From the IMG/VR virus record IMGVR_UViG_3300020469_000023, positions 1-64,000 of that record: DNA of 64,000 nucleotides; one strand, written 5' to 3'. A program made the position numbers and the translations under genes. The notes below the pieces were generated by a model. That model was not told the DNA's origin. It did no database searches and was given only the letters and a program-made list of their open reading frames with translations. Shown here piece by piece: positions 3,111 through 48,644 of the stretch (position 1 is its first letter; each line of letters begins with the position of its first letter). This DNA comes from a virus.

Positions 3111-4205
3111 ATGAAAACAGCGGTGTTAAGTAATTTTGATGGAGACGAATTTAGTTATCAATATCTTAATTTAGATACTATGAATAGTGATACAAATGAG
3201 TTACATGAAAAATTAGAATATTATTGTAATACGAATGCATCTTGGTTAGACCCAAATGCTATACCAAATAATATAATTGCTAGAGTTATGTATCGAGGTA
3301 GTCATATTCCACATCAAATGTTATTATCTCTAGCAAATACTATTGGTGGAAACAATATGTTAATTATACCTAATTGGAATGACAGGAAACATAACCATTT
3401 ATATAATAGAGACCATACAACAATACCTTATTTAAATACAACATCAGATGTATTTTGTCCAACACATACTTTAGTTCAACATTTTGCTCCTGTCTGGCAA
3501 AAGTTATTAACTTGTCCTTTAAATTTATATGTAGCAATGCCGCCTGGTAACAGTCTGTTTCATTATTTGTATGGACAATATGGTGTAAAAATGGTTAGTG
3601 CATCAAAACAATATACTCTTGGTGAAAATGTTTTTTCTGGTTATACTATTGATGTTCCTTCAAATATTAAATTTGATGCGGTTATGTTACTCAACCATGA
3701 TAGACCAGATGAAGGTTTAACTTATAAAGCATCTGATATTAAAAAAGACTTTGCACAATATTGTAAACCAAACTTTGTACTTCAAGATTTATATTCTCCT
3801 CCTGGGCCATTACCTATGCTTGTGGAACAAGGTCTACTGACTTATCGAGGTATTACTAGTGACATACCAGAAAGTTTAGAAGGAAAAAATAACTATGAAA
3901 AAGTAAGTCAATCTATGTTAGTAGGTAGAAGTGGTGATGGTTTAGTGCCTTCTAGCACTATGAATGAAGGAAGATTAACAGGAGATTCAGGTTCAGATTT
4001 AGAAGGAAATTTAACTGCAGAAAGATTTAGAGGTGGTGCAGTAACTCCAGTTTTTTGGAGTACGGTTGATTCAAATGGTGAGAAAGTAAGTGTTCATGAT
4101 TTAGTTGAAAAAGTAGGTTTAGAAGAGACATTTAAAATGCAACATAAGAATTTATCAGACATGGTAAATAAAAATAATTTCTCAGATATGATTAAAATCT
4201 GGTAG
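3111..4205 (+). CDS. Large uncharacterised late protein
   Basis: A 364-residue soluble protein I cannot assign. There is no signal peptide or membrane segment. Residues 1-240 look like an alpha/beta globular domain. The C-terminal third (about 255-330) is Gly/Ser-rich and lower in complexity (for example SMLVGRSGDGLVPSSTMNEG), then a short helical end. Its place in a late-promoter cassette with a small membrane protein and a coiled-coil protein fits a virion component, but this is inference. Confidence 0.65.
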   Translation: MKTAVLSNFDGDEFSYQYLNLDTMNSDTNELHEKLEYYCNTNASWLDPNAIPNNIIARVMYRGSHIPHQMLLSLANTIGGNNMLIIPNWNDRKHNHLYNRDHTTIPYLNTTSDVFCPTHTLVQHFAPVWQKLLTCPLNLYVAMPPGNSLFHYLYGQYGVKMVSASKQYTLGENVFSGYTIDVPSNIKFDAVMLLNHDRPDEGLTYKASDIKKDFAQYCKPNFVLQDLYSPPGPLPMLVEQGLLTYRGITSDIPESLEGKNNYEKVSQSMLVGRSGDGLVPSSTMNEGRLTGDSGSDLEGNLTAERFRGGAVTPVFWSTVDSNGEKVSVHDLVEKVGLEETFKMQHKNLSDMVNKNNFSDMIKIW

Positions 4206-4234
4206 AAAATACAGTTTGTATATATAGTAATGTC

Positions 4235-4268
4235 AATGATTTTTTACGTCTAAGAAATCATTATTTTT
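4235..4268 (+). terminator. Weak AT-rich hairpin
   Basis: AATGATTT (4235-4242) pairs with AAATCATT (4255-4262) around a 12-base loop and is followed by a run of five T. It lies 30 bp after the 364-residue gene. The stem is AT-only apart from one pair, so it may be a weak or partial terminator that lets some transcription reach the small gene at 4299. Confidence 0.4.
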
Positions 4269-4298
4269 ATAACGTAAAGTAATAAGAGGAAAGTCACT

Positions 4299-4466
4299 AT
4301 GACTACTGCACAACTAAGGTTTGGTGCGAAGATTGTAGTGCAAAAAATTGAAAACCTAAAAGATAATGACACCGTGTGCCATGTCTGTGAAGTCTGTAAA
4401 TTCGTAGCATTCTTAATCGGACCAATTACAATACCATTTGTGATAATGCATCTTTCGATGTACTAG
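4299..4466 (+). CDS. 55-residue Cys-rich membrane-like peptide
   Basis: A small gene starting at an ATG preceded by AGAGGAAAG. The product has two close CxxC-type pairs (CHVCEVC) at about residues 27-33, followed by a hydrophobic C-terminal segment (about 34-53) rich in Phe, Ile and Val. It could be a membrane-tethered metal or redox peptide. It is the last plus-strand gene before the strong hairpin at 4480-4506. The ribosome-binding site and clean reading frame support it. Confidence 0.55.
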   Translation: MTTAQLRFGAKIVVQKIENLKDNDTVCHVCEVCKFVAFLIGPITIPFVIMHLSMY

Positions 4467-4479
4467 AACTATGGACAAG

Positions 4480-4506
4480 AAGGAATCAACCTTGCTTTGA
4501 TTCCTT
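4480..4506. terminator. Strong bidirectional hairpin between convergent genes
   Basis: Perfect 10-bp stem AAGGAATCAA (4480-4489) / TTGATTCCTT (4497-4506) with a 7-base loop. It separates the plus cassette from the minus-strand island and overlaps the last codons of the minus gene ending at 4486. Both arms can terminate converging transcripts. Confidence 0.65.
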
Positions 4507-5118
4507 ACTTGTTGTCACAACAATTTCTACATTATCTGATTGTATCGGAATCTTTATATTATTGTGAGTATGATACAAGAAGAAAGTAGTATCTGGAAAT
4601 TCTTTGAACATTTCCGTCCAGATTGGACGCCAGTTTTGAGCAAGTCTAACTGTATTCTCTGTACTTCTATCAGATTCTAATATTGTATCTGTCCAAGAAG
4701 TTAAATCCATTTCAAAGATAGAATCAAATCCATAAATGTGAACTTCATCTGCATTCATTTGATTACATGCATAGTGAACAGCAAAGTGTCCACAATTAAA
4801 GTTTGTGGCATTACCAGCATACTTGGGAACATGTGGGTAAAAACCTCTTACTTTATGAGAGTATTTTAAATAGAAACTACCCTGCATCTCCATCCAATGT
4901 CTTGGTCTAGTACCTAGAATCCAGTCGTATTGGTCAAGAGCAAACTTACCTTCTTGAAGTGCTTTCATCATTTTGTAATCTACCATACATGTTGCATAAA
5001 CTTCATTTGGTGGTATTTCCATGGGTGGCATATTACAGATAAGTAAAGTCCCAGGCGAACCTCTACGATAGAGACCCGCATGATTACCATTCCCTAGAAC
5101 ATTAATTCTTTTTGTCAT
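4486..5118 (-). CDS. Phage glycosyltransferase-like protein (DUF115/GT29-like), uncertain
   Basis: A 210-residue protein opening with a nucleotide-binding-like strand-loop (INVLGNGNHAGLYRRG). Later blocks include DWILGTRPRHW, FNCGHFAVHYACNQ and ADEVHIYGFDSIF. This layout occurs in phage proteins distantly similar to sialyltransferase/6-hydroxymethylpterin pyrophosphokinase-like MAF proteins. Its location as the last gene of a glycosyltransferase island fits a role in sugar transfer. Family placement is from memory and should be treated as tentative. It overlaps the nuclease gene by four bases. Confidence 0.6.
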   Translation of the reverse strand: MTKRINVLGNGNHAGLYRRGSPGTLLICNMPPMEIPPNEVYATCMVDYKMMKALQEGKFALDQYDWILGTRPRHWMEMQGSFYLKYSHKVRGFYPHVPKYAGNATNFNCGHFAVHYACNQMNADEVHIYGFDSIFEMDLTSWTDTILESDRSTENTVRLAQNWRPIWTEMFKEFPDTTFFLYHTHNNIKIPIQSDNVEIVVTTSKESKQG

Positions 5119-5537
5119 TCATCATGTCCAAATAAAGTTTGGTGGTCAATGAGTTCTCTATTTTGTAAATGTTGTTCTGCAATATCTTCTTTGGATTGTC
5201 CAAAGTATGCAACTGCAAGATGAGTTTCAACCATAACTTGATTGATGTTCACACCATCACATATAATTTCACCAAGTATTCTACCATACTTACCTTTTGC
5301 ATCTTTATATGTTCTTAGTGATACTACTTCTGCATCTTTAATTGCATCTTCTAAGAAGTTTCCTGCCATTTTACCATACTTCTTTTCTTCTAAATCTCTT
5401 GTTCTGGATTCTGGTGTATCAATACCATATAATCTAATTCTCTGCTTCTTTAACCAAGTAGAGAAACCTAAATCTATATCTACATCAACAGTATCGCCAT
5501 CAACAACTCTTAAAACGTCTATTTTATATTCGTGCAT
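5115..5537 (-). CDS. Staphylococcal nuclease-like endonuclease (SNase)
   Basis: A 140-residue SNase-fold nuclease. Visible motifs are VVDGDTVDVDI near residue 11 and IRLYGIDTPESR (about 34-45), which holds the catalytic Arg and Glu. YGRILGEI (about 84-91) holds the second catalytic Arg. There is no clear signal peptide, so it probably acts in the cytoplasm on host or phage DNA/RNA. It is within the glycosyltransferase island and overlaps both neighbours by a few bases. SNase homologs are frequent in marine myophages. Confidence 0.9.
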   Translation of the reverse strand: MHEYKIDVLRVVDGDTVDVDIDLGFSTWLKKQRIRLYGIDTPESRTRDLEEKKYGKMAGNFLEDAIKDAEVVSLRTYKDAKGKYGRILGEIICDGVNINQVMVETHLAVAYFGQSKEDIAEQHLQNRELIDHQTLFGHDE

Positions 5538-6171
5538 TTATTTGCTCCTTTATCACATCGTCTCCTTTCTTTCCTGTATGATGTATTATTTTTGGGTTTT
5601 TTACATCTATCTTATCTATGTAGTCTAGGCGTAACGTATTGTATTCATGTGGTAAAGGATTGATTGCACCAAGTTTTCTGATTGCATTACCTTCCATCAT
5701 TAAATATAAAACTTCTTGGTCACCTTGCTGTGGGTTATGAATACATTGTTTTTCCCAATCTCGAAGTACTAATGGTATACCTTGAATTAAAATAACACCA
5801 CTATTATACCATTCACCCATTTCTGGTCTTCTTTTACTCCATGGTCTATCTTCAATCATACCAAGTTTATCTGGTTCAGCATAATTAAATATACTTGAGA
5901 TATCTTCTAGTACTTGACAATCTGTGTCTAACCAACAAACTTTACTATGACCTAGTTCAGCAACTTTAATAAGACTAGAAGGTTTTTTAAACCAACCTTT
6001 TGCTTTATTTTTTGACATATCAATACAAGTATAATCACCATCAGGGTAATTCATCATACCAAAGTCAGCAATAACTAATTGCGTATCGTTGTATTTTTTA
6101 AAGTTTTCGATAAACCAAGGTAATTGCCATTCTGTTTTGTGGTCACACCCTGTTACAAAAACATTAGACAT
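5524..6171 (-). CDS. GT8-like glycosyltransferase
   Basis: A GT-A-fold transferase of about 215 residues. The central CWLDTDCQVLED holds the DxD-type metal/nucleotide-sugar motif. A later GEWYNSGVILI and a His-rich IIHHTGKKG near the end match the usual GT8 plan. I chose the ATG at 6171 (MSNVFVTGCD) because the longer frame adds a low-complexity Thr/Lys leader inside the upstream gene. It probably transfers a sugar to a surface or DNA substrate of host or virion. Confidence 0.75.
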   Translation of the reverse strand: MSNVFVTGCDHKTEWQLPWFIENFKKYNDTQLVIADFGMMNYPDGDYTCIDMSKNKAKGWFKKPSSLIKVAELGHSKVCWLDTDCQVLEDISSIFNYAEPDKLGMIEDRPWSKRRPEMGEWYNSGVILIQGIPLVLRDWEKQCIHNPQQGDQEVLYLMMEGNAIRKLGAINPLPHEYNTLRLDYIDKIDVKNPKIIHHTGKKGDDVIKEQINARI

Positions 6172-27714: not shown

Positions 27715-27743
27715 ATTATAACAAGTGAATCAAGTATTGTCAA
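27715..27743 (-). promoter_or_regulatory. Early sigma70-like promoter (shared extended type)
   Basis: Minus-strand TTGACA (27738-27743), 17 bp, TATAAT (27715-27720), with the CTTGT / AACAACATAAATTA flanks repeated at 2258-2286 and 51601-51629. It overlaps the stop of the ANL-like gene ending at 27730. Confidence 0.85.
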
Positions 27744-28977
27744 GTCTTTTTTTCACATTTTTTATATGTCCACGAAGTTGTTCCATATTAATCTTAGTAT
27801 CGTAATCAAATAAACTTAAATCTATAGGTTCTGGACATGACTTAATTAGGTCATCTAAGTGAATAGTTTCGATTCTACCTTTTAATATGTATTGACTATT
27901 GACTATTTCTAGAATATCATCCATGTCACGTTTCTGAGTCCACATGGAGTTGTTGACAGAAACATGCCCAGTAGATGATACATCTATGTCGTAAAAATCG
28001 TCTGGTGAGACTCCTAGAGAGTCTGGTATGCATTCAGAATTACCACTTATGTAGTTTACTAGTAATGGAATTGCTGTATCTACACTACCATAGTGTGAAA
28101 TAAATTCGATGTCATACTCTTTACACATGTCTATATGTTTTTGTGTCATTGTAAATCCACACATAACTAATATTGTACCTTTTTGTAGTCCACCATTTTT
28201 ATCAAAGAATTCAATAAACCAATCTAGCATTTTTTCATTTGGTATCATTACGTGATTAAAGTTAATTAAATTAAGACCTTTGACTTGCCATTCAGTAAAC
28301 TCTGCCATTGTAAACGACCTATGTTTTTTAACTACCATAAGTGACGGCAATAGTGTACATAACATTGCACTAACATGGTGCATATTTTTACTATGTAATA
28401 TTTTAGTATCTGGTTTTAATTTAAAAATATCTATATTTCTTTTTGCTATTGCATATACTTCTTTATGTGTGAATTCAATTTTACGAGAAGGTTTAGTAGA
28501 ACCAGATGTAGAACTAATTAAAAATACATCATCTTCTGATACTTCACTAATGTAGTCCATACCTGTCGGTACTTTTAATTTAAGTTCTCGTGCATCAATT
28601 AGTTCTTTACTATATTCACGAATCATTTTACCATGCAAACCACCATAAAGTTCATCGCCTTTAAAAGCATTATGAATTAAATAATCGACAGGACCATGAA
28701 GTGCGAGTTTAGTATAAGGTAAAGACTCTTTGGTTGCAGGCGCATCAATCAAAAATATTTTTAAACCTAACTCGGCACATGCAATAATAGATGTTAAATG
28801 TAAATGATTTACATCTAGAATACCAATAGCAATTGTTTCTCCTTTGCGAACATTGTAGTTCTCTTTGAGTAACATTTTCCATTGTCTTATTTCATAAACA
28901 AGTTCTGCTTTTGATTTATTGGCATCAAAGTTTATTTCGTCATTGATAATGTTACGACTAATTTTGTTTTCCGACAT
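27730..28977 (-). CDS. ANL-superfamily (AMP-forming ligase-like) protein
   Basis: About 415 residues. The adenylation-core P-loop-like motif appears as FLISSTSGSTKPSRKIEFTH, followed by MHHVSAMLCTLLPSLMVV. FISHYGSVDTAIPLL stands at the YGxTE position. The C-terminal domain is short and the usual catalytic Lys region is not obvious, so the product may form an acyl-adenylate only or be inactive. The start at 28977 (MSENKISRN) is preferred over the longer frame. It pairs with the upstream ANL-like gene. Confidence 0.7.
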   Translation of the reverse strand: MSENKISRNIINDEINFDANKSKAELVYEIRQWKMLLKENYNVRKGETIAIGILDVNHLHLTSIIACAELGLKIFLIDAPATKESLPYTKLALHGPVDYLIHNAFKGDELYGGLHGKMIREYSKELIDARELKLKVPTGMDYISEVSEDDVFLISSTSGSTKPSRKIEFTHKEVYAIAKRNIDIFKLKPDTKILHSKNMHHVSAMLCTLLPSLMVVKKHRSFTMAEFTEWQVKGLNLINFNHVMIPNEKMLDWFIEFFDKNGGLQKGTILVMCGFTMTQKHIDMCKEYDIEFISHYGSVDTAIPLLVNYISGNSECIPDSLGVSPDDFYDIDVSSTGHVSVNNSMWTQKRDMDDILEIVNSQYILKGRIETIHLDDLIKSCPEPIDLSLFDYDTKINMEQLRGHIKNVKKRLDNT

Positions 28978-29899
28978 CATATACAATTTTGTGTGTAAAA
29001 GGTTCTGTAATTTTACTTTTAAAAAACTCAAGTGATTCTGAGTCAGGAAATAGTATTCTCTCTATTTCATGTTCACGAACTGCCTTAACTGCATAGTCTG
29101 TAATGTATTCATAAACAGGTGCTTCTTCGGGGCGTTCAGTATGGTCCATCAAAGTAATATTAAATATTTCTTCACAATTCATTAGTGCTGGTAAAAAGTA
29201 GTAATCAATACATCTATTGTGATGAATTGGTCTAGACATTGCACAATTTTTATAAGGAAATGGATATTGTTTTGTAGATTCGATAATTTGTTTATGTGTA
29301 AAGTAATCAGGGTGCCACCATTCATCAATTTCTTTTATGTCCATACATGGGTCAATAGACATAACTGCATACGAATCTTCACTTACTTCCCAGGGTTGGA
29401 TAGGTGTACCGGGATATGGTGCAACATCGTCCATCAACATAACATTGTTTGTGCCTTGTTCGTTTTCCCAATGATTATATAAATTTATTACATCGGCATA
29501 GAGACCATCTTTTAAATCCATACGAGTCAGACCACCTGAATTGTTTGGGTCTAATGGTTTATTTAAATCATGTACACAAAATTCTTGATAACCACGAAAA
29601 TACTTACTGTGAATAGTAATCATATATTGAACAGCATCTAACATATGTTTTGCATCTTTTCTTGTTTTTAATATTCTATCTGAGCAAGTAATAACTTTAA
29701 ATCCAAGTTCCCATGCCGCAAACAAGGCCGCATAGTAATCATTTGGACAATTTAATGTTGTGACACTAATACTATCATTCTTTTTTATACCTTTATCAAG
29801 ATACATATGTTTGAACTTGTTGATTCTATGGCATATTTTTTCATATGATGTGCCATTTATGATGATATTAGGATTTATTAGTTCTCTTGAAATAATCAT
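28958..29899 (-). CDS. ANL N-domain-like partner protein
   Basis: 313 residues. The first 80 residues (IINGTSYEKICHRINKF, then YYAALFAAWELGFKVITC) match the N-terminal subdomain of AMP-forming ligases (A1/A2 region). No SGTTG-type motif follows; the rest is divergent (for example WWHPDYFTHKQIIES). It overlaps the second ANL-like gene by twenty bases, so the two are coupled and could form a complex. Substrate unknown. Confidence 0.55.
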   Translation of the reverse strand: MIISRELINPNIIINGTSYEKICHRINKFKHMYLDKGIKKNDSISVTTLNCPNDYYAALFAAWELGFKVITCSDRILKTRKDAKHMLDAVQYMITIHSKYFRGYQEFCVHDLNKPLDPNNSGGLTRMDLKDGLYADVINLYNHWENEQGTNNVMLMDDVAPYPGTPIQPWEVSEDSYAVMSIDPCMDIKEIDEWWHPDYFTHKQIIESTKQYPFPYKNCAMSRPIHHNRCIDYYFLPALMNCEEIFNITLMDHTERPEEAPVYEYITDYAVKAVREHEIERILFPDSESLEFFKSKITEPFTHKIVYDVGKQN

Positions 29900-32043: not shown

Positions 32044-34032
32044 TTATCCTTCACATGCTTTACACTCTTCCGAGTCTTCTGTTTCTGTTTTGTCAAATAG
32101 TTCCATAAGTTCATCATAACCACCCACATATTCACCTTGTAAATATATTTGTGGAACTGTTTTAACACCTTTTCGACCCGTTACTTCTCTTGCAGTTTTA
32201 CCAATCTCTTCAAGATTAATCTCATCGTATGGTATACCACGAAGTTTCAGTTCTTCTTTTGCAAGTTGACAGAAAGGACAATTGGGTTTTGAATAGACAA
32301 TTGTACTTGTGTCACTTTGGAGTGCGACTCTCTCTACTTTTTCAGAAACATTCTCAGCACGAGACTTTGCTTCTGTTCGCAAATAATATAATCCTTTCAG
32401 ACCTGAACTCCATGCACGTAAGTGGACTTTGTTCACATATGATTTATCTGCTGTACCAGGAAAGAATAAGTTAACAGACTGTCCTTGACAGATATACTGT
32501 TGCCTATCTCCTGCATGACGAACTACCCAGTTTTGGTCTAATTCATCTGCTGTTTTATATATACTTTTTTCACCTTCTGTAAGAAACGAAAGATGCTGAA
32601 CAGACCCCTTATTCGTAATGATAGAACTCCAAATGCTATCATTATTCATTTCTTTTGTTTCAAGTAGTTCTTCTAGATATTTGTTCTTGACAAGAAAACT
32701 ACCAGCACGAGTTCTGTGTGTGTATGCATTTGCTTTAAGTGGTTCTATTGAAGGACTTGTTCCAAGAATAACACCACTAGATGCATTTGGGGCAATCGCA
32801 AGTAAATGAGAGTTTCTTTTACCACTCTTTGGTCCATCTAAATATGCACCACGTTCTTCTGCAAGTTGCTCTGTTTCTGCATGTGCTTCATCATGAATGA
32901 ACTTAAATACTTGGTCGTTAATATCTTTTGCAAGTTCAGATTCCCATGCAACACCATGCTTATGTAAAAGGGAGTGAAATCCCATTGCACCAAGACCTAA
33001 ACTTCTTTCTCTTGATGCAGAATACTTTGCACGAGCAATCGAGTCTGGTGCATTGTGTATGAAGTACTCCAGCACATTATCTAACATTCGTATTAAATCT
33101 CTTACGATTGTAGTATCTTTCCATTCATCATAGTATTCTAGATTTAATGATGATAAACAACAGACTGCAGTTCGTTCGGCACTTGTAGGTAAATGTATTT
33201 CATTACATAGATTACTTCCATGTATTTTAAGTCCTGCATCTTTCAGTGGTTGAGGTAAACCTTTGTTTGCAGTATCAATAAAGTTTAAATATGGTTCACC
33301 AGTTCTAAATCTAATTTCAAGTATTCTTTCCCATAACTTTCTTGCTTTGACAGTTTCTTTTGTACTACCATCATTTGGGTCAATTAAATTAAAATCACTA
33401 TTTGTCATAACTGCTTCCATAAACTTATCTGTTATGTTAATCGCATTGTGTATGTTTAGTGCTTTACGTTGCACATCACCAGTAGGTATACGAATGTTTA
33501 GAAACTCCATAATGTCTGGGTGGTCAACATTCATGTATGCCGCATAACTACCTTTACGTGTTTTACCTTGACGATATGCAATCATATCAGCATCTACTGT
33601 ATGCAGAAATGGTATTGGACCAGGGGCAATATCAGATACAGTTCTTACATCTGACCAATGACCACCTACACCACCACCCATGATAGATAACCATCTAAGT
33701 TCAGATGAATGGTCAATTAAACCTTCAAGTGTGTCTGGTACATAAGTAAGAAAACAAGATATTGGCATACCTTTTGATTTACTTTCTTGCCCATTGGGTG
33801 CATTTGATAAAACAGGACTTGCAAACATAAACCACTTATTACTTACATAATCATAGAGTCTTTGTGCGAGTTCTTTATCTGTCTTACCATCGTATTTTGA
33901 CCATGCTAAACTGGCACGTGCAAATCCTTCTTGTGGTGATTTTTCATAATTTGTGAGATAAAAATCTTTCAGCATTCCAACTGAATAATCTTCTAATAGT
34001 TTATCTCTTTTTTTGTCAATGTTTAAGTCCAA
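32044..34032 (-). CDS. nrdA: Ribonucleotide reductase class I alpha subunit fused to glutaredoxin
   Basis: 662 residues. The catalytic barrel has Cys93 (PISCFLT), the N-x-C-x-E triad NLCNE (274-278), the second redox Cys in TAVCCLSS (291/292), PNASSG and the YLRTEAKS radical-transfer end. There is no N-terminal ATP-cone. After the barrel, about residues 575-650 form a complete glutaredoxin (CPFC near 585-588, TVPQIY, GGYDEL). The C-terminal redox tail CKAC (657-660) follows. The glutaredoxin therefore sits between the active-site barrel and its own swinging tail, which could let the enzyme recycle itself with glutathione. A perfect early promoter precedes it. Confidence 0.95.
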   Translation of the reverse strand: MDLNIDKKRDKLLEDYSVGMLKDFYLTNYEKSPQEGFARASLAWSKYDGKTDKELAQRLYDYVSNKWFMFASPVLSNAPNGQESKSKGMPISCFLTYVPDTLEGLIDHSSELRWLSIMGGGVGGHWSDVRTVSDIAPGPIPFLHTVDADMIAYRQGKTRKGSYAAYMNVDHPDIMEFLNIRIPTGDVQRKALNIHNAINITDKFMEAVMTNSDFNLIDPNDGSTKETVKARKLWERILEIRFRTGEPYLNFIDTANKGLPQPLKDAGLKIHGSNLCNEIHLPTSAERTAVCCLSSLNLEYYDEWKDTTIVRDLIRMLDNVLEYFIHNAPDSIARAKYSASRERSLGLGAMGFHSLLHKHGVAWESELAKDINDQVFKFIHDEAHAETEQLAEERGAYLDGPKSGKRNSHLLAIAPNASSGVILGTSPSIEPLKANAYTHRTRAGSFLVKNKYLEELLETKEMNNDSIWSSIITNKGSVQHLSFLTEGEKSIYKTADELDQNWVVRHAGDRQQYICQGQSVNLFFPGTADKSYVNKVHLRAWSSGLKGLYYLRTEAKSRAENVSEKVERVALQSDTSTIVYSKPNCPFCQLAKEELKLRGIPYDEINLEEIGKTAREVTGRKGVKTVPQIYLQGEYVGGYDELMELFDKTETEDSEECKACEG

Positions 34033-40105: not shown

Positions 40106-40113
40106 TATTTATT
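40106..40113 (-). promoter_or_regulatory. Late-promoter-like box (one mismatch)
   Basis: AATAAATA on the minus strand, six bases upstream of the GTG start at 40099 and overlapping the end of the preceding gene. Confidence 0.4.
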
Positions 40114-40447
40114 TAGTTTTTACGTACAGTCTATTTTTTGCTTGTTTTGTATTATCAAATGACATACCATACATTTTACCTATTCTATTGAGTTGTATGA
40201 CTCTTTGATTGCTAGGCATGTTCATTAATTGTTTTTGCATTGTACCAAATAGTTTTTTCATTGCATCTATTTCAGTAGTAACCATTTGTCCTTCTTCTAC
40301 ATTTTCACCACGAGCATTCTTAAAATCTTGGGCCGAAGGTGCGCCTTTCTCACCAGGTTTTCTCATCTTCTTACCACTTTTTCGTTTCTTATGGATATTG
40401 GCCCATAAAGACTCGTTTGAAGAAGCGAATTGTTTAAATGATTTCAT
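40109..40447 (-). CDS. Basic capsid-interior candidate protein
   Basis: 112 residues. It begins MKSFKQFASSNES, the targeting-like start shared by several neighbours and similar to T4 internal proteins (MKTYQEF..E). The block LWANIHKKRKSGKKMRKPGEK is strongly basic, for DNA contact. EIDAMKKLFGTMQKQL is echoed inside the 903-residue protein encoded next to it (EVDAMKKLSKDMQKVL). The first Met overlaps the neighbour's stop. Confidence 0.7.
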   Translation of the reverse strand: MKSFKQFASSNESLWANIHKKRKSGKKMRKPGEKGAPSAQDFKNARGENVEEGQMVTTEIDAMKKLFGTMQKQLMNMPSNQRVIQLNRIGKMYGMSFDNTKQAKNRLYVKTK

Positions 40448-43155
40448 TTTCCGAGTAGTCTTTTTAGACCTTGAACTGTCATTTTCTTATCGTTCATTGC
40501 AGTTTGAACTTTAAGTCTGTCTTGTGGTTTACGAATTGCATCAAACTTTTTCATCATCATCTTAGCATCTGCTGGTTTCAACATTACTTTTTTACCATTT
40601 CGTAATTCTATTTGTGCAGGTCTTTGTAAATCTGTAACTTTTCTTATTTGCATAACAACATTTTTATCTGCGGCCTTTCTGTCATCTTTAGTTGCAACAC
40701 CGTAACCATCATCGTCTTTATCTTTACGTTTACCCATATCTCTCATTGCATCTGCTTTTGCACGAGACATAGATTCTGTATTTATTGCCTTTTCTAAATC
40801 ATCTGCCTGTTTTGCATGAGTCTTAGAACCACCTCTTAACTTCTTAACTAAGTCTTTGACAAATGGTTTGTCTTTGGCATCTAATGCTTCTGACTTAGGT
40901 TTCTCATGAGTATAACCCATTTTACCAAACTTCATATGGTCAGCATATGTATTTGCCATGACTTCTTTATCACCCTTATACATTTTATGTGGTTTAAAGT
41001 CTTTCTCATCTGCACATTCATTCTTAGGTTTCTCACCTCGTTCTTTCTTAGAGATTGCAATTGCGGCCTGTTGTGCGGGAGATACTGCTTCTATTTTATA
41101 TTTTTTACCATAATTAGTCATAAGTGTTTTTAATGCTTTTAAATCTCTTTTGTCATAGGCATTTCCCAAAGCAAGATAAAGTGTAGAATCAATTTGTCCT
41201 TTTGGTTTAACAATCTTAGCAATTTTTTCTTGTTCTGCTTTACCCAATCTAGGGAATCTTTCTTTAACTCTTTGTAATATTGCTTTTTGGTTAGGTGATA
41301 CTGCTTCTTTTTGCATTAACATTTTAGTATTAAGAGTTCCAATCATTTTAAGGATTGAGTCTCTTGCATCTAAAACTTTTTTATAGTCTTTGTTATGTCT
41401 TGTATCTTTTAATTCTTTATCACCTATAGTTGCAATCTTTTGATAAGTTTGTAAAACCTTTTGCATGTCTTTGGAGAGTTTTTTCATTGCATCTACTTCT
41501 TGTCTTGTGACTTCTTGTAAATCAGTTGACTCTTTTCTTGATTTACCAGCAACTTTCATTGTAAGATTAACAAGTCCTGGTAATTTAAGTGTGTCCATTC
41601 TTTTCTTGTTCTGTGAATTAACTTTGTCATATACAGATGCTATCATACTTGCAGTTGTTAAGTCAAGTTGCATACCGTCTATTTTCATCATAGATTTTTT
41701 CTTAACTACTTGACGAACCTTCTTCATAGTTGCAGACTCTTCGTTAAGTGGTGTACCTGATTTATAACCTTCGTATATCAAACTGAATATTAATCCATTA
41801 CTTGCTTGTAAAATAACTTCATAAACATCGTCCCTAATTGCAGTATCTAAATCTGCAAACAAGTTTAATTCTTTAGGGTCTCTCATTATCTTTTTACCCT
41901 TTTTAGTAATAGTCATTCCTTTTGAGATTACATCAATTATCTTCTTAATTTTTGGGGCGTCCATTTCATCTCTCGGTTCACCTTTACCAAAAGCGGCGCC
42001 TTTCTTAGCGGCACCTCTTCTATCTTGGTTCATTATTCTTGCAAGTGACCTAACAATAAGAGAAGTATTCGGGTCTTTTATTTTATGTTTACCGTCTTTC
42101 TTTTTCTGAAGCATGTCCATGACATCATCATGTTCCATTGCTGGACCCGATGCTCTAGATTTTTTGAATTTGGTTCTAATTTTTCGTTCAAGACCGTCTT
42201 GGCCTGGTTTTAGTGCAAATTGTTTTTCTAACAAGTCAAGTTGTTCTTCAAGAGAGTTTAGTTGTGCAAGTACATCTTCTGTTGCAGTATCTTTAGTTCT
42301 TTGTATTTCGTCTTTCTCTTGTTCTGCTTCTCTTTTATGTTTTGCTTTTAAGTCTGCCATTTCTTTTGCTCTTTCAACTGCATCTTCAATTAAAGACGGG
42401 TCTCCATAAGATGATTTACCTCTTGCCACTGCATCAAAGTCTCTTAACTGTTTCTTATTGCCACTCATAGTTACAAGAGTATCATTACCTTTTTTCTTAA
42501 ATGCTACTTTCAACTTCATTAACTTTGCAGATGAATTAAACTTGTCCATTTCAGGTTTTTGTATACCTTTAACTCGGTAAGTCATCGTATTTTCATTTAT
42601 CGATTCTTTCATAGCAGGTAGTTCACCCATTTTAATCGCCATTCTTGAGAAACCTTTTGGATTTTGTTTCTGCATTGACTGTAAAACTTTAACACTAGTC
42701 ATGTTCATAAGATTTGCAATACCGTCTATCTCTTTTCTATTTCTAGTTTTGAATAGTTTACCCAACTTATCTTCCATAGACTCTTCAAGGTCTTTTCTTT
42801 TTAAAACTTTAGTTTTCTTTACTTTACCAAGTGGTATACCATCTGGCATTGCAACAGAAGTTGTGCTTGTCATATCTTCGTTTGCAGTTTTAAGTGCTTG
42901 TTGAACAACAGGCATCTTTGAAAGACCTCTTTTAAGTTTTTCTATTTCTTTACTTGCGAGAGTATAATTACCACCTAAATCAAGTGCAAGTTCAATTGCT
43001 TTCTTAACTGTCTTGTCTTTAGCGGCCATTTTTGCTTTAGGATTATCTTTATAATACTTTGCAACTTCTTGACCCGTAAGTTTAGACTTACCCATTTTAG
43101 ATAATGGGTCTAACTTACCACCTTTAACTCTTTCAGATATGTCTCTGAACTTCAT
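40444..43155 (-). CDS. 903-residue Lys-rich internal-head polyprotein candidate
   Basis: Very basic and almost wholly helical. Recurring blocks suggest a string of modules: EAVSPNQKAI and EAVSPAQQAA, EVDAMKKLSKDMQ, and several E-[AS] junctions in short disordered linkers (for example DLEESMEDKL, LNEESATMKK). T4-like prohead proteases cut internal head proteins after Glu in such contexts, so this may be processed into several DNA-bound peptides in the capsid. No enzyme motif is visible. AGGAG lies upstream of the ATG. Confidence 0.65.
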   Translation of the reverse strand: MKFRDISERVKGGKLDPLSKMGKSKLTGQEVAKYYKDNPKAKMAAKDKTVKKAIELALDLGGNYTLASKEIEKLKRGLSKMPVVQQALKTANEDMTSTTSVAMPDGIPLGKVKKTKVLKRKDLEESMEDKLGKLFKTRNRKEIDGIANLMNMTSVKVLQSMQKQNPKGFSRMAIKMGELPAMKESINENTMTYRVKGIQKPEMDKFNSSAKLMKLKVAFKKKGNDTLVTMSGNKKQLRDFDAVARGKSSYGDPSLIEDAVERAKEMADLKAKHKREAEQEKDEIQRTKDTATEDVLAQLNSLEEQLDLLEKQFALKPGQDGLERKIRTKFKKSRASGPAMEHDDVMDMLQKKKDGKHKIKDPNTSLIVRSLARIMNQDRRGAAKKGAAFGKGEPRDEMDAPKIKKIIDVISKGMTITKKGKKIMRDPKELNLFADLDTAIRDDVYEVILQASNGLIFSLIYEGYKSGTPLNEESATMKKVRQVVKKKSMMKIDGMQLDLTTASMIASVYDKVNSQNKKRMDTLKLPGLVNLTMKVAGKSRKESTDLQEVTRQEVDAMKKLSKDMQKVLQTYQKIATIGDKELKDTRHNKDYKKVLDARDSILKMIGTLNTKMLMQKEAVSPNQKAILQRVKERFPRLGKAEQEKIAKIVKPKGQIDSTLYLALGNAYDKRDLKALKTLMTNYGKKYKIEAVSPAQQAAIAISKKERGEKPKNECADEKDFKPHKMYKGDKEVMANTYADHMKFGKMGYTHEKPKSEALDAKDKPFVKDLVKKLRGGSKTHAKQADDLEKAINTESMSRAKADAMRDMGKRKDKDDDGYGVATKDDRKAADKNVVMQIRKVTDLQRPAQIELRNGKKVMLKPADAKMMMKKFDAIRKPQDRLKVQTAMNDKKMTVQGLKRLLGK

Positions 43156-43701: not shown

Positions 43702-44940
43702 TTAGTCATCGCCAAACATTTGTTTGTATGATTTCGTATGTTTACTAAGTTTTGTTCCTTTCTTTCTTGCCTTTTTGTCTCCAGGTGCATCTTTGTATGC
43801 AGATGGATTATCATCGTCCATCTTACCATGTTTAGCAAAATGTGATGCTCTAGAACTTTTCGTTTTCTTTGCTACACCTTTATAGTAAACAGATGGTTGC
43901 GAACCTTCTTTATCTTTGACATCTTTATCTTGAGCAACTCTTGCCTTTTCTTTTTCCATGATAGTCGCAACGTCATCAACAATTTTTTCTGCAACACGTT
44001 TAGCAGTAGCAGTAGCAATTGCCATTTTTTTACTCATGTCCATTTTAGGGTTATCTTTTTCAATTGCTTTTGCTATCTCTTCTCTTTTCTTAAGTTCTGC
44101 TGGTGTTAGTTTCTTTTCAACAAGTTCTATTGCATCTAACCATTTACGTACTTTCTTTTTATCACTTGTTTCAATAATAACATAATTAGAACCTAATACT
44201 GTAATAACACCAACTTCTTCTGATTCTTTGATAACAACAGTATCGCCTATTTCATAAAGACTACCTTTGATGTAGTTCTCTCGAAGTTCGTTTAATTTAC
44301 CAAGGTCAACATGACGTTTGAACTTTTTCTCTTCTTTAAGTCCCATGCCTTTACGAACATCATTAAATAACTTACGAGTATCTTTATCATTCATTGTGCT
44401 TGGTACACCTTGAGAGAATGCAGTATAATCATTTTGTTGAGCATTTGCTCTTTGTTTTGATGCAGACATACCAGCAACTCCTTCAGCATCTGGGTCACGT
44501 TCACCTGCAGACAATACATTAATTGATTCAAAGTTGTAGAAACCATGTCTACCTTTGACACCATTATACTTTTTCAATAGTGTGTCAAACTCTCTAACTC
44601 TATCAGAACCAACAATCATATTTACTTTACGATATCCTTGGTCATATAGTTCTGTTACAGCATCAAAGGCAGTTCTTATCTTTTTATTAATGATAATACT
44701 TCTACCATGTTTTGGAAACATTTTTCGCATATGTTTGATTTTATCTGAGTAAGATAGTGGGTCTTTCTTTGGATTAGATACTTGTGAAGTAAAAACTTTA
44801 TAGTCATTTCTACCAGATTTCTTTGCTAAATTTTCAAGTACTTTACCATGTCCAATAGTAGGTGGATTCATTCTACCAAACGTGAAGAATACCTCTCTTT
44901 CTGCTTCAATTAAATATTGTGAAAAGTTTTTGATTGCCAT
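43702..44940 (-). CDS. Nucleotidyltransferase with capsid-targeting-like N-terminus
   Basis: 412 residues. The first dozen residues (MAIKNFSQYLIEAER) fit a cleavable targeting peptide. Then FFTFGRMNPPTIGHGKVL gives the HxGH-type motif (here HGK after G) of the NMN/cytidylyltransferase superfamily. VNMIVGSDRVREFDTLL and ISKQR-like SASKQRANA complete the core (about 15-190). A KOW-like segment and a basic C-terminal tail follow. Substrate (NMN, phosphopantetheine or a sugar phosphate) is not determined. An enzyme carried within the head is inferred. Confidence 0.8.
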   Translation of the reverse strand: MAIKNFSQYLIEAEREVFFTFGRMNPPTIGHGKVLENLAKKSGRNDYKVFTSQVSNPKKDPLSYSDKIKHMRKMFPKHGRSIIINKKIRTAFDAVTELYDQGYRKVNMIVGSDRVREFDTLLKKYNGVKGRHGFYNFESINVLSAGERDPDAEGVAGMSASKQRANAQQNDYTAFSQGVPSTMNDKDTRKLFNDVRKGMGLKEEKKFKRHVDLGKLNELRENYIKGSLYEIGDTVVIKESEEVGVITVLGSNYVIIETSDKKKVRKWLDAIELVEKKLTPAELKKREEIAKAIEKDNPKMDMSKKMAIATATAKRVAEKIVDDVATIMEKEKARVAQDKDVKDKEGSQPSVYYKGVAKKTKSSRASHFAKHGKMDDDNPSAYKDAPGDKKARKKGTKLSKHTKSYKQMFGDD

Positions 44941-45310: not shown

Positions 45311-47557
45311 TTACCTCGGTTTATCCCATCCTTTCAATATATTAGCAGAAAAGTTATTATAAGAAAATTCTAATCTATCAACTAACTTAACTGCACCACC
45401 ACCTAACTTATCAATAGCAACATATCCTTCTGCACCTGTTGTTTTATAACCATTTCTTGTTTTTACAAATGCATCTATATTGCTAATGTTGTTTAATCTA
45501 TTTATAAGTTTTAGTTTTGCGAGAACTATATTCTTCTGTAAATCAAACATATTGACAAGCGAAACTCTATTTTGTGGTGAAAAGAACTTTAAAATTGTGT
45601 CTAATTTATCTTGTTGTGTTTGTTTTCCTTTTGCAGTTTTACGTTTGTCCATTTCTTTTTTATATTTATTCTCAATCCAACGTATCAATCTTGCAGTATG
45701 TTTCTTACTGTCTGGTAACATTTGCCCTGCTCTAACAAAAGTATTATTGTATTGTTCGATTAATTGTGCAAGTTCTGGATTCTTTTCTAGTTCTCGAAGT
45801 GTATCACCAGCGACTTTGTTAAAAAGAAAACCAGCAGTACTTAAATAACCTGTAACTTCTGTTGTTTCTTTTTCATTCATTGTTGCCTCACCAGCGCCAC
45901 TTAGTTCTGCATCTTGCGACCAAACTGCTGGAGAAGATGGTATCTTTTTCACACCATACGATGCTTTCATTGATGCAAAGTCTTTACCTTTATATGTTGT
46001 ATGCCAAACTATACCAATCTGTGACTTAGTAATACGTTTGGCCGCTTCTGTACCTGATTCAACTGCATAGACAATTGTGTTTGGGTGAAATGTAATATAC
46101 TGCTTACCATCTATTTTAGTTTTACTTAAGTCTTGTTTTGAGTATAAGAAGTCTCCTTGTATGACATCTTTAATACCAAGATTCTTTAAATGCTTCAATG
46201 CAAGTTTTAGTTTCTCTGCTAAATCGCCTGAAGTATCAGCATCAATATCAGCATTTGATTTATATACTTTTGGATTCTTAGCAAAGATACCTTTCTTAGC
46301 AACAAAGAACTTACCATCACTTGGGTCTTCACCACAGAAGATTGCTGGTGCACCATCCCACTTAACTGACATCTTAGTTGATGATTTACCTGCTAACATA
46401 TCACGTATACTTCTCAAGGCATTGATTGCCTCTCTTGTACCTTTGACTCCACCATACAAAACTTTATCTTCTATATGTGTCATGTGTGTATTCTTTTCTT
46501 CTGGTAAGAAAAGACTTTTGTAAGATTCTGTCTGAAATGGTGTCAACTTACGATACTTTTTATTGTTCTTCGGGTGATATTCCATGTAGTCTTCGTTTCT
46601 TTCTTTAGTTTTCTTTTTCATCTTATTAATATATGTACGATAGATTGCCGCTTCTGCAGATTTACCCATTTCTTTTGCACGTTGTTCCATAGCAACTGCC
46701 GCTTGGATTTTGTGTGCATGTTTTTTACCAGAGTTTTCTATCTTCTTAACACTTGCTCTTGCAGTTTCAACGTCTTTAAATCCTAATCCATGTATTGTAC
46801 CTTTAGGGTTTTCATCTGTATATAAATCAGAATGTTTTTTAGAGTTAGCGGGTTGACCTTTCTTTCTAGGTATTCTAGGGTTTGTCTCTTCTTTCTGAGT
46901 CTTTATCCACTTTTGTGCAATTGGATTCATAGGTTTCTTGTCTGCAAATTGTTTTATTATTCTAAATGCTCTAGTTGTTTCTTTATTATAGTCTTTTCCA
47001 TCTGAGTTGTCAACTATTGTCAATCTACTTTTAAATGCTCTTTGATATTTACCAACGTTTCTTTGAACATTGTCCCACATCTTTGCAACTTCTTTCGGGT
47101 CTAGTTTTCTTGCTCTTTCCATATTTCTACGTAAAGCAGTTTCTTTATCTGTGTTGACAAATATCATTGCAGTAGAATAACCTAATTCTTTTAGTTTTTC
47201 ATTCTGTCTAATTATTTTATCTGCATCACGCCCTGTACCATCAATGACTAAACCAAGTCTGCCTTTCATATACATCATTTGTTGTTTTGCAGTCAACTCT
47301 TTTGCTTTAGTTCTTATATCTTGACCACCAACAGAAAAAATATTATCAGGGTTCATTTCTAGACCTGCTTGATTCATTGCACGTTCAAATGCAGTATCAG
47401 AATTTACAACTTTAAAACCTAAAGATGTAAGTCCTGTTTTACCAACAATAAATGATTTACCACTACCTGGTCCACCAGCAAGAAAGATTGCTTTGAAGAT
47501 TGCAGGGTCATTAACACCTTCTTCAACTTCTGCTATGTGTTCATTAAAACTTAACAT
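45311..47557 (-). CDS. P-loop kinase fused to ligase-like nucleotidyltransferase (DUF6321/DUF6267-like)
   Basis: 748 residues. A targeting-like start (MLSFNEHIAEVEEG) is followed by a kinase domain (Walker A GGPGSGKS 28-35, LVIDGTGR near 103-110) of the PNK/zeta type. A linker domain (about 225-315; HSDLYTDENPKGTIHGLG) resembles DUF6321. The C-terminal half has SVKWDGAPAIF with the K-x-D-G of covalent nucleotidyltransferases at 399-402. A later EGYV (near 710) and VKLVDR could be motifs IV and V. Together these suggest a nucleic-acid end-healing and sealing enzyme. The ligase assignment is my reading of the motifs, not a known annotation. Confidence 0.7.
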   Translation of the reverse strand: MLSFNEHIAEVEEGVNDPAIFKAIFLAGGPGSGKSFIVGKTGLTSLGFKVVNSDTAFERAMNQAGLEMNPDNIFSVGGQDIRTKAKELTAKQQMMYMKGRLGLVIDGTGRDADKIIRQNEKLKELGYSTAMIFVNTDKETALRRNMERARKLDPKEVAKMWDNVQRNVGKYQRAFKSRLTIVDNSDGKDYNKETTRAFRIIKQFADKKPMNPIAQKWIKTQKEETNPRIPRKKGQPANSKKHSDLYTDENPKGTIHGLGFKDVETARASVKKIENSGKKHAHKIQAAVAMEQRAKEMGKSAEAAIYRTYINKMKKKTKERNEDYMEYHPKNNKKYRKLTPFQTESYKSLFLPEEKNTHMTHIEDKVLYGGVKGTREAINALRSIRDMLAGKSSTKMSVKWDGAPAIFCGEDPSDGKFFVAKKGIFAKNPKVYKSNADIDADTSGDLAEKLKLALKHLKNLGIKDVIQGDFLYSKQDLSKTKIDGKQYITFHPNTIVYAVESGTEAAKRITKSQIGIVWHTTYKGKDFASMKASYGVKKIPSSPAVWSQDAELSGAGEATMNEKETTEVTGYLSTAGFLFNKVAGDTLRELEKNPELAQLIEQYNNTFVRAGQMLPDSKKHTARLIRWIENKYKKEMDKRKTAKGKQTQQDKLDTILKFFSPQNRVSLVNMFDLQKNIVLAKLKLINRLNNISNIDAFVKTRNGYKTTGAEGYVAIDKLGGGAVKLVDRLEFSYNNFSANILKGWDKPR
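46985..47013 (-). promoter_or_regulatory. Internal sigma70-like promoter
   Basis: Minus-strand TTGACA (47008-47013), 17 bp, TATAAT (46985-46990), both perfect, inside the kinase-domain coding sequence. Its purpose in a late gene is unclear; it may be fortuitous. Confidence 0.4.
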
Positions 47558-48644
47558 TTCTTTTTACTCTAATATCTGGTATCGCACCAAGAAAAGATGT
47601 AAGTTGTCTCAAACCTTTTTTAAAAAAGTTTGTAACTTTACTCCATGTTTTACTTACAAATGATTTAACTTTATTTAATATGTTAAATTCAACTAATGTT
47701 TCTTTTTCATTTGTATCTAATTCTTCTGTCATAGAGTCTACTATTAATGAAATTACTGACCAGAAAAAATATTCTCCAGTTCCACCTTTTTCATTAGTCG
47801 GAGATACAAGTTCTTTTTTAGTTCGTTGTGATGTTTTAAACCTTGTTTGAAGTTTCATTGCAGTTGCTATTTTTTCACAATAACTATCATCATTAACATC
47901 ATGAATTTCTACTTTTCCACCGTCAGCAGTAGAGACCAACATTAAGTCTGCAGATGCTGGACTACTTTTACCAAATTTTTCATAACCTGACATTGCTTCT
48001 CTGGCAAATTCTATTTTAAATTCTTTAGACTGATTAAATAAATTACCAAGTTCTTTCATACAATCTTTGTGTGCTTTTTCCGCGGCATTAACTACTTTGT
48101 TTGTACCCGCTTTAATTAAAGGTCTAATTTTTGAAGGTGCTAATGTATTTTTTACAAAACCTTCTAATACTTGATTTGTTTTTTTATATTGTGGACTTTT
48201 TACTAAATCTGAATTAGAATTTTTAACTGCCGCTTGAAACGTTGCAGTTGATTCTGCTTTACCGCCAGACATTAGTTGTGCTAAACCTATTTTAACTGAA
48301 AAGTTTTTATCACCTATTTTTACATCTGTTTTTGGTGTAGTATCAGAAGCATCATATGATTTCCAAAAATCTGTTAAACTAGATTTTGTTCTACCAAATA
48401 CTTCTGCTTTTTTATTTTTTAGTTGTGGGTAATCTTTTAGTATTTTTGTTGCAATTAATTCACCTGTTTTTTTGGCACTTGGAGTATTTTCTATTTTATC
48501 GTAAAGTTGTTGTTTAATACCATAATCTTCTGTAGATTCCATTACTCTTTTAGTTACAGTATAAAAACCCATAACTATTGCCGCTTCATAATCTTCTGCT
48601 TTTAATTTTGCTTCTGTCAAAAAATTATTTTTAAATGAATGCAT
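47544..48644 (-). CDS. Capsid-interior candidate, possible PD-(D/E)XK-like nuclease
   Basis: 366 residues. The start MHSFKNNFLTEAK fits the targeting signature (cut possible at TE/A). A central stretch FGRTKSSLTDFW, then TPKTDVKIGDKNFSVKIG, has the D-(x)n-K spacing of a PD-(D/E)XK active site, although the Glu/Gln before the last Lys is missing. The C-terminal 60 residues are amphipathic and basic (VSKTWSKVTNFFKKGLRQL), possibly membrane- or DNA-binding. Nuclease function is tentative. It overlaps the kinase-ligase gene by 14 bases. Confidence 0.6.
   Translation of the reverse strand: MHSFKNNFLTEAKLKAEDYEAAIVMGFYTVTKRVMESTEDYGIKQQLYDKIENTPSAKKTGELIATKILKDYPQLKNKKAEVFGRTKSSLTDFWKSYDASDTTPKTDVKIGDKNFSVKIGLAQLMSGGKAESTATFQAAVKNSNSDLVKSPQYKKTNQVLEGFVKNTLAPSKIRPLIKAGTNKVVNAAEKAHKDCMKELGNLFNQSKEFKIEFAREAMSGYEKFGKSSPASADLMLVSTADGGKVEIHDVNDDSYCEKIATAMKLQTRFKTSQRTKKELVSPTNEKGGTGEYFFWSVISLIVDSMTEELDTNEKETLVEFNILNKVKSFVSKTWSKVTNFFKKGLRQLTSFLGAIPDIRVKRNVKF

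Follow-up and report, generated by a model that had tools for sequence, protein, structure and literature searches.

The repair of RNA by phages has been documented in detail (PMC7824862, PMC9503650), and the passages found in these two articles make no mention of DUF6267 or of a head-tagged kinase-ligase. In phage T4, tRNA is repaired by Pnkp and Rnl1 (PseT and gene 63), a 5'-kinase partnered with a ligase. T4 Rnl2 and the Naegleria RNA ligase (PF09414) are further enzymes with a nucleotidyltransferase core. T4 also has internal head proteins (IPI-III and Alt). IPII and IPIII both begin with MKTYQEFIAE/A (slashes mark cuts throughout), and this tag is an established capsid-targeting sequence that is cut off by gp21 (see also PMC3012670). 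The IPs are small proteins, IPI being an inhibitor; Alt is an ADP-ribosyltransferase. To our knowledge, no T4 internal head protein is a kinase or a ligase. Multidomain proteins that are presumed to travel in the virion and to be injected are known as polyvalent proteins (Iyer et al. 2017, PMC5512222); T4-type tags, cleavage between domains and DUF6267, all of which concern us here, are not described in the passages of that article that were read.

The window, the whole stretch of DNA analysed here, covers 64 kb of an IMG/VR record, 99,095 bases long, of a T4-like marine myovirus. On its minus strand, positions 45311-47557 form an intact open reading frame (ORF) of 748 amino acids, with an ATG start and zero internal stops. 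The predicted protein resembles the T4 Pnkp-Rnl1 pair in that a 5'-kinase, by fold and profile match, is partnered with a putative ligase, and its C-terminal half shares with Rnl1 the motif order KxDG, EGYV, K and a common, non-significant EGYVA segment. Unlike that pair, it is one fused protein with a head tag and an internal protease site, has no 3'-phosphatase half, and does not match the Rnl1 sequence family. It resembles the T4 internal head proteins in its tag, which has the pattern MxxFxx[FYH][IL]xE/, and in the presence of a gp21-type protease.

Fused architecture and neighbouring genes

The features of the ORF are listed in Table 1. The Walker A, KWDG, EGYV and VKLVDR motifs proposed in an earlier note on this DNA were all confirmed in the 748-residue frame, as that note had stated. 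The same kinase-DUF6267 fusion occurs in independent IMG/VR contigs (L001-L006, L008-L010 and L013), at 97% and 75-89% identity, and purifying selection was detected on either half of the fused protein (dN/dS 0.06-0.23). The joining of the two domains therefore did not arise through misassembly. The module that links the two halves is also present in other phage proteins (the upstream proteins of L081, L083 and L094) and is absent from the fused relatives L008-L010 and L013. In 14 loci, the kinase and DUF6267 are encoded by separate genes that lie near each other, within 4 kb. At the level of sequence, the architecture is modular, and its domain junctions keep protease-like sites. Sequenced phages with DUF6267 account for at least 368 records, and hundreds of marine viral contigs also encode it. 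The earlier note's remark that the C-terminal family appears to have no published function holds: no publication naming DUF6267 (PF19782) was found in the literature searched.

Table 1. Positions in the window of features of the kinase-DUF6267 protein and of two neighbouring genes
Feature	Residues	Position	Strand	Basis
N-terminal head-targeting tag MLSFNEHIAE/VEE/G, candidate prohead-protease sites IAE/ and VEE/	1-13	47519..47557	-	likeness to T4 IPII/IPIII
P-loop kinase domain	14-225	46883..47518	-	Pfam matches; AF2 pLDDT 83; structure matches; hhalign to T4 Pnk
Walker A GGPGSGKS	28-35	47453..47476	-	
Linker module, phrog_727-like	226-327	46577..46882	-	phrog_727 E 4e-7
Candidate internal protease site LPE/E	351-354	46496..46507	-	[LIVAFM]xE kept in fused relatives
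DUF6267 domain, predicted covalent nucleotidyltransferase core	356-738	45344..46492	-	PF19782 E 2e-102; AF2 pLDDT 90
Motif I K399-W-D-G	399-402	46352..46363	-	K, D, G in 102/102
Motif Ia-like VAKKG		46289..46303	-	K422 in 102/102; T4 Rnl2 alignment (CAKRTG there)
Motif III-like Q467-G-D469, on strand	467-469	46151..46159	-	Q, D in 102/102; ligases have G-E
Motif IIIa-like strand NTIVYAV, invariant Y497	493-499	46061..46081	-	alignment; AF2 model
Helical insertion (128 residues) between motifs IIIa and IV	562-689	45491..45874	-	AF2 model
Motif IV E710-G-Y-V	710-713	45419..45430	-	E, G, V in 101/101
Motif V V-K724-L-V-D-R728, single Lys	723-728	45374..45391	-	K in 101/101; R in 100/101
Cytidylyltransferase/NMNAT-like neighbour, tag MAIKNFSQYLIE/A		43702..44940	-	phrog_3041, phrog_395; homologues with same kind of tag in virions of three cyanophages
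Tagged 366-aa protein MHSFKNNFLTE/A, directly upstream		47544..48644	-	38% identical to HTVC008M gene upstream of its DUF6267

Other joinings were also seen. In L088, a single ORF (positions 3164-5251) encodes a cytidylyltransferase, the kinase (after a VEE/GVDDP site) and DUF5824. Because it joins what the window has separate or differently joined, these modules are shuffled among phages. The protein encoded directly upstream of the fusion matched none of the Pfam or PHROGs families; by eye, its conserved TPKTD..IG...S.K.G.AQLMSGG segment (TPKTDVKIG...SVK) possibly resembles a PD-(D/E)XK nuclease active site. Between the tagged genes lies a 903-aa lysine-rich protein with no family match (40444-43155, minus strand), which could be another head-internal polyprotein. 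Elsewhere on the minus strand, the window encodes a protein weakly matching AMP-forming acyl-CoA ligases (27730-29031; menE, E 5e-7), which T4-like phages do not usually have, and the alpha subunit of a ribonucleotide reductase, which ends in a glutaredoxin domain (32044-34032).

The kinase half

In an alignment of thirty kinase relatives, the Walker A motif, N52, D54, a D-x-T motif (D106 and T108) and R148 were conserved. In the window protein, residues 22-193 matched Zeta_toxin, AAA_33 and AAA_17 above the Pfam cut-offs. An hhalign comparison with the kinase domain of T4 Pnk gave a probability of 94.5 (E 8e-8) and aligned K34/S35, D54 and R148 with T4 Pnk K15/S16, D35 and R126; these are the Walker A residues, the catalytic Asp and the lid Arg expected of a P-loop kinase fold. 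When the kinase profile was searched against the PDB, seryl-tRNA(Sec) kinase (1.1e-4) and T4 Pnk (0.003) were matched, and in a structure comparison with VIA the Z scores were 16.2 for O-phosphoseryl-tRNA kinase (PSTK), 15.3 for the CthPnkp kinase, 13.4 for T4 Pnk and 13.1 for zeta toxin. Foldseek against the PDB placed zeta toxin (3q8x, 6e-7) first, with the CthPnkp kinase (4mde, 6.5e-7) tied with it and adenylate kinases scoring similarly; an adenylate kinase was rejected since these fold scores come with no acceptor evidence. These sequence and model comparisons class the N-terminal half among P-loop kinases as polynucleotide-kinase/PSTK-like, and they favour a polynucleotide or a tRNA as its probable acceptor. 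Arg38 is important at the acceptor site of T4 Pnk, and its counterpart in the window kinase family is an invariant Phe57. The proposal of a 5'-end kinase is supported by fold and profile, but the acceptor-site arginine is replaced, and kinases of other small molecules score close by.

One such kinase is the zeta type. Zeta_toxin (PF06414) was the best Pfam match (3.6e-12, 46.6 bits versus a cut-off of 22.3) and, as noted, its structure came first in Foldseek. If the kinase acted on UDP-GlcNAc or another small molecule, it would be an effector against host metabolism, and the ligase half would be unrelated cargo on the polyprotein. We consider this improbable: the Pfam family is broad, polynucleotide kinases tie with zeta toxin in Foldseek, and both PSTK and CthPnkp rank above it by VIA.

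The gene neighbourhood brings in a different kinase substrate. The bacterial NadR architecture, in which an NMNAT is joined to a ribosylnicotinamide kinase, is described in PMC9503650. The same order, a nucleotidyltransferase followed by a P-loop kinase, is found in L088, and the kinase of L076 and L090 follows a similar C-terminal tail. NMNAT-like neighbours are also packaged (see below). A packaged nicotinamide-riboside kinase could thus work with its NMNAT-like neighbour to refill NAD+ drained by host defences, with DUF6267 separate from this, for example in another adenylyl transfer. However, the family signal of the window kinase appears to differ from that of NadR: the NadR-type AAA_28 was matched weakly in 4 of the 30 members (best E 0.014), compared with AAA_33 and Zeta_toxin in 30/30, and no NadR chain was among the structure and profile matches listed. 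NAD+ repletion would also leave the kinase-DUF6267 fusion unexplained, and we regard it as unlikely.

The kinase was also found in the middle of a 778-aa protein of Agrobacterium phage Atu_ph07 (AUZ94865; L246, positions 3485-5821), preceded by SEVTE/GVND. By eye, the N-terminal part of that protein (YRGM...STS) looks like a possible ADP-ribosyltransferase, the activity that T4 Alt has; it had no Pfam match.

The DUF6267 half

DUF6267 was aligned using 102 relatives from viral and genome contigs, 101 of which reach motifs IV and V. In addition to the motif residues counted in Table 1, P404, N493, Y497, H519, T520 and K681 were invariant in all 102. The conserved segments succeed one another just as motifs I, Ia, III, IIIa, IV and V do in covalent nucleotidyltransferases, for which the T4 Rnl2 equivalents are KIHG, CAKRTG, FGE, FDI, AEGYV and IKCK. 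A KxDG motif with an invariant lysine, EGxV and a downstream lysine on strands, and an acidic motif III residue on a strand are all present; the x of KxDG varies among distant members (W, Y, I or M). Thus, the proposed fit to motifs I, IV and V holds beyond chance, and the earlier note had missed the candidates for motifs Ia (K422), III (Q467-G-D469) and IIIa (Y497). In contrast to Rnl2 and the Naegleria enzyme, with which it shares the motif order and a predicted nucleotidyltransferase core, DUF6267 has Asp for Glu in motif III and one lysine in motif V; the second lysine of KxK (here K724-L-V726) is never present in the alignment. Only about 20 residues follow motif V, with no OB domain or Rnl-type C-terminal domain among them, and the helical insertion before motif IV is found instead; it is much shorter in 295-aa cyanophage forms (L244 and L245).

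Searches by sequence did not place DUF6267 in a ligase family. With phmmer and profile searches of the PDB, zero ligases were found; RNA-ligase families were absent among the matches listed in a Pfam scan of the 102 members; and hhalign against six Rnl2 proteins, T4 Rnl1 and the ligase-like protein of Atu_ph07 gave no significant match, the best short segments, themselves non-significant, being motifs IV-V (EGYVAV..FK) and the motif IIIa strand (QPNTVVY). By sequence profile, DUF6267 is thus a member of neither Rnl1 (PF09511) nor Rnl2 (PF09414). SWI2_SNF2 matches in 24 members (best 1.5e-4) cover domain residues 150-191, a region of strands, and were judged to be due to chance.

The AlphaFold2 model of the domain (pLDDT 90.0, pTM 0.84) is built around a beta core, and the motifs lie within strands or where strands end. 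With VIA, RNA ligases came first: Naegleria Rnl (NgrRnl) had a Z of 8.0 over 181 residues at 4.0 A, followed by T4 Rnl1 and T4 Rnl2 (both 7.3), Trl1 (7.2) and TbREL1 (6.9), with DNA ligases at about 6; the ligase alignments span 160-200 residues at an rmsd of about 4 A. A Z of 7-8 lies in a grey zone that unrelated folds also reach, and the ligase margin is small because unrelated helical DnaK rows reach 7.0 in the same list. Foldseek against the PDB was non-significant (best E 0.17), although ligases recur among its matches. When the uncharacterised and cytidyltransferase-fused proteins of the DUF6267 family itself are set aside, the top annotated BFVD match was an RNA ligase of Agrobacterium phage Atu_ph07 (E 4.7e-3, prob 0.99); a protein of the same length from that phage, probably the same one, weakly matches Pfam RNA_ligase (E 0.002). 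The check that could have refuted the earlier note's ligase reading, a predicted fold unlike the ligase nucleotidyltransferase domain, did not refute it: RNA ligases are the best VIA matches, but their Z values are in the grey zone and the PDB search lacks significance. On the model, DUF6267 probably has a ligase-type fold, and the prospect that it actually seals ends is slightly better than even.

The departures listed above, namely the aspartate in motif III, the single motif V lysine and the missing C-terminal domain, together with the grey-zone Z, would also suit a partial resemblance, in which DUF6267 seals nothing and instead transfers adenylyl or guanylyl groups to a protein, to RNA ends or to a small molecule, or binds nucleic acid without catalysis. 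However, all nucleotide-contacting motif residues are invariant and purifying selection is strong, which argues for catalysis, and we hold a non-sealing role to be very improbable.

If the domain seals ends, the ends could be those of DNA: it would close nicks or breaks of the incoming phage genome after the kinase had healed 5'-OH DNA ends. DNA ligases also match the model, the window's contig showed no RNA-ligase Pfam domain, and tagged proteins share the head with DNA. Yet DNA ligases score below RNA ligases, there is no OB domain, and restriction cuts leave 5'-phosphates, on which the kinase would be idle; DNA sealing is decidedly unlikely. Two points make RNA the likelier substrate: the folds closest to the model are those of RNA ligases, and the kinase would be needed only for 5'-OH ends made by ribonucleases.

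Head targeting, virion proteomes and a proposed pathway

The idea that the protein is packaged is supported by its T4-type tag and by a gp21-type prohead protease encoded in the same contig (Peptidase_S77, E 6.7e-41; G000:C1:88574-89002). The full tag pattern occurs at 3.7% of the internal Met positions of the window ORFs, which gives the background rate; two proteins of the cluster, at 40109 and 44947, do not fit it, having MKSFK.F without the hydrophobic residue. Standalone relatives of both halves carry comparable N termini. Standalone DUF6267 proteins start, for example, with MNFKEFITEQ/KNTHM or MKKFNQYIIEA/KNTHM. By the strict pattern, a (hydrophobic)-x-acidic or x-E site is kept within two residues of KN in 80 of the 111 non-redundant ones, with the whole tag pattern in 67 of those 80; in many of the remainder, it lies a few residues upstream of this range. 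Pelagibacter phage HTVC008M and Methylophilales phage Melnitz are among the tagged phages, and cyanophage P-HM2, like S-SZBM1, is untagged. Standalone kinases begin with MLRFKQFLDE/GVNDP, and [LIVAFM]xE[GA] stands just before the kinase in 50/50 complete relatives, including six with the kinase inside a longer protein.

The fused proteins keep a site of this kind at the inner junction. Before DUF6267, [LIVAFM]xE is present in all 10 of the non-redundant fusions scored, and some have a complete second tag there (TFTNFITE/Q). Given this conservation, the phage's own prohead protease probably releases the two enzymes from each other within the head. The protein had been called self-contained; this is doubtful because the internal protease site means that the halves are probably separated, and no 3'-end phosphatase was found.

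Published virion proteomes of relatives were consulted. The cytidylyltransferase neighbour was detected by mass spectrometry in virions of S-SZBM1 (PMC9146016), S-SCSM1 (PMC9602691) and S-CREM2 (PMC10665884), and its tags in these phages are MRFRQFIIE/A, MKSFLQFLKE/A and MKNFSSFLTE/A, respectively. The DUF6267 proteins of the same phages are untagged (N termini MAKNTHLEH, MQNKHQEH and MNKATKPLTHIEH) and are neither listed nor marked as virion proteins in these proteomes. The tagless DUF6267 protein of S-SZBM1, S-SZBM1_141, is absent from the mass spectrometry list though its neighbours are present. The virion proteins S-SCSM1_89 and _90 were tested as DUF6267 candidates and are not members; the real ones lie elsewhere and are untagged. 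The sample is small, but all three tagged and all three untagged cases agree with the prediction of the tag hypothesis. Since untagged cyanophage DUF6267 proteins are not in the virion lists, DUF6267 in most cyanophages probably acts without packaging. No tagged DUF6267 or tagged kinase was itself detected in the published virion proteomes, and none of those located came from a phage whose DUF6267 is tagged.

Taken as a whole, the best reading is a virion-packaged two-enzyme polyprotein that heals and seals nucleic-acid ends, and we judge its chances to be even. The architecture, the motifs, the tag and the protease gene are present in the sequence; from these, we infer the packaging of the window protein, its cutting, its substrates and sealing as follows. 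The N-terminal tag would send the protein into the prohead core, as in T4 internal proteins, a step that the relatives support. The gp21-type protease would then cut at IAE/VEE and LPE, removing the tag and splitting the kinase from the ligase domain, and the two would enter the cell together with the DNA. There, as its fold and the D54 and R148 equivalents suggest, the kinase may phosphorylate 5'-OH ends, and the DUF6267 domain may take AMP on K399 and seal nicks, more probably in RNA such as cut tRNA than in DNA. No 3'-phosphatase or cyclic phosphodiesterase was seen, and this missing 3'-end healer is the main gap in the healing and sealing reading. More tentatively, marine T4-like phages may deliver RNA repair from the capsid: a kinase and a ligase, with DUF6267 an unrecognised RNA-ligase family, would be packed as a single tagged polyprotein, cut apart in the head by the prohead protease and injected, so that host-cut tRNAs are mended before phage gene expression.

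If the ligase-type assignment is true, it gives a testable activity to a gene that is common both in cyanophages and in the phages that infect heterotrophic marine bacteria. If the tag is read correctly, T4-like phages would inject repair enzymes in addition to inhibitors and ADP-ribosyltransferases, and the presence or absence of a tag predicts which phages carry the DUF6267 protein in the virion.
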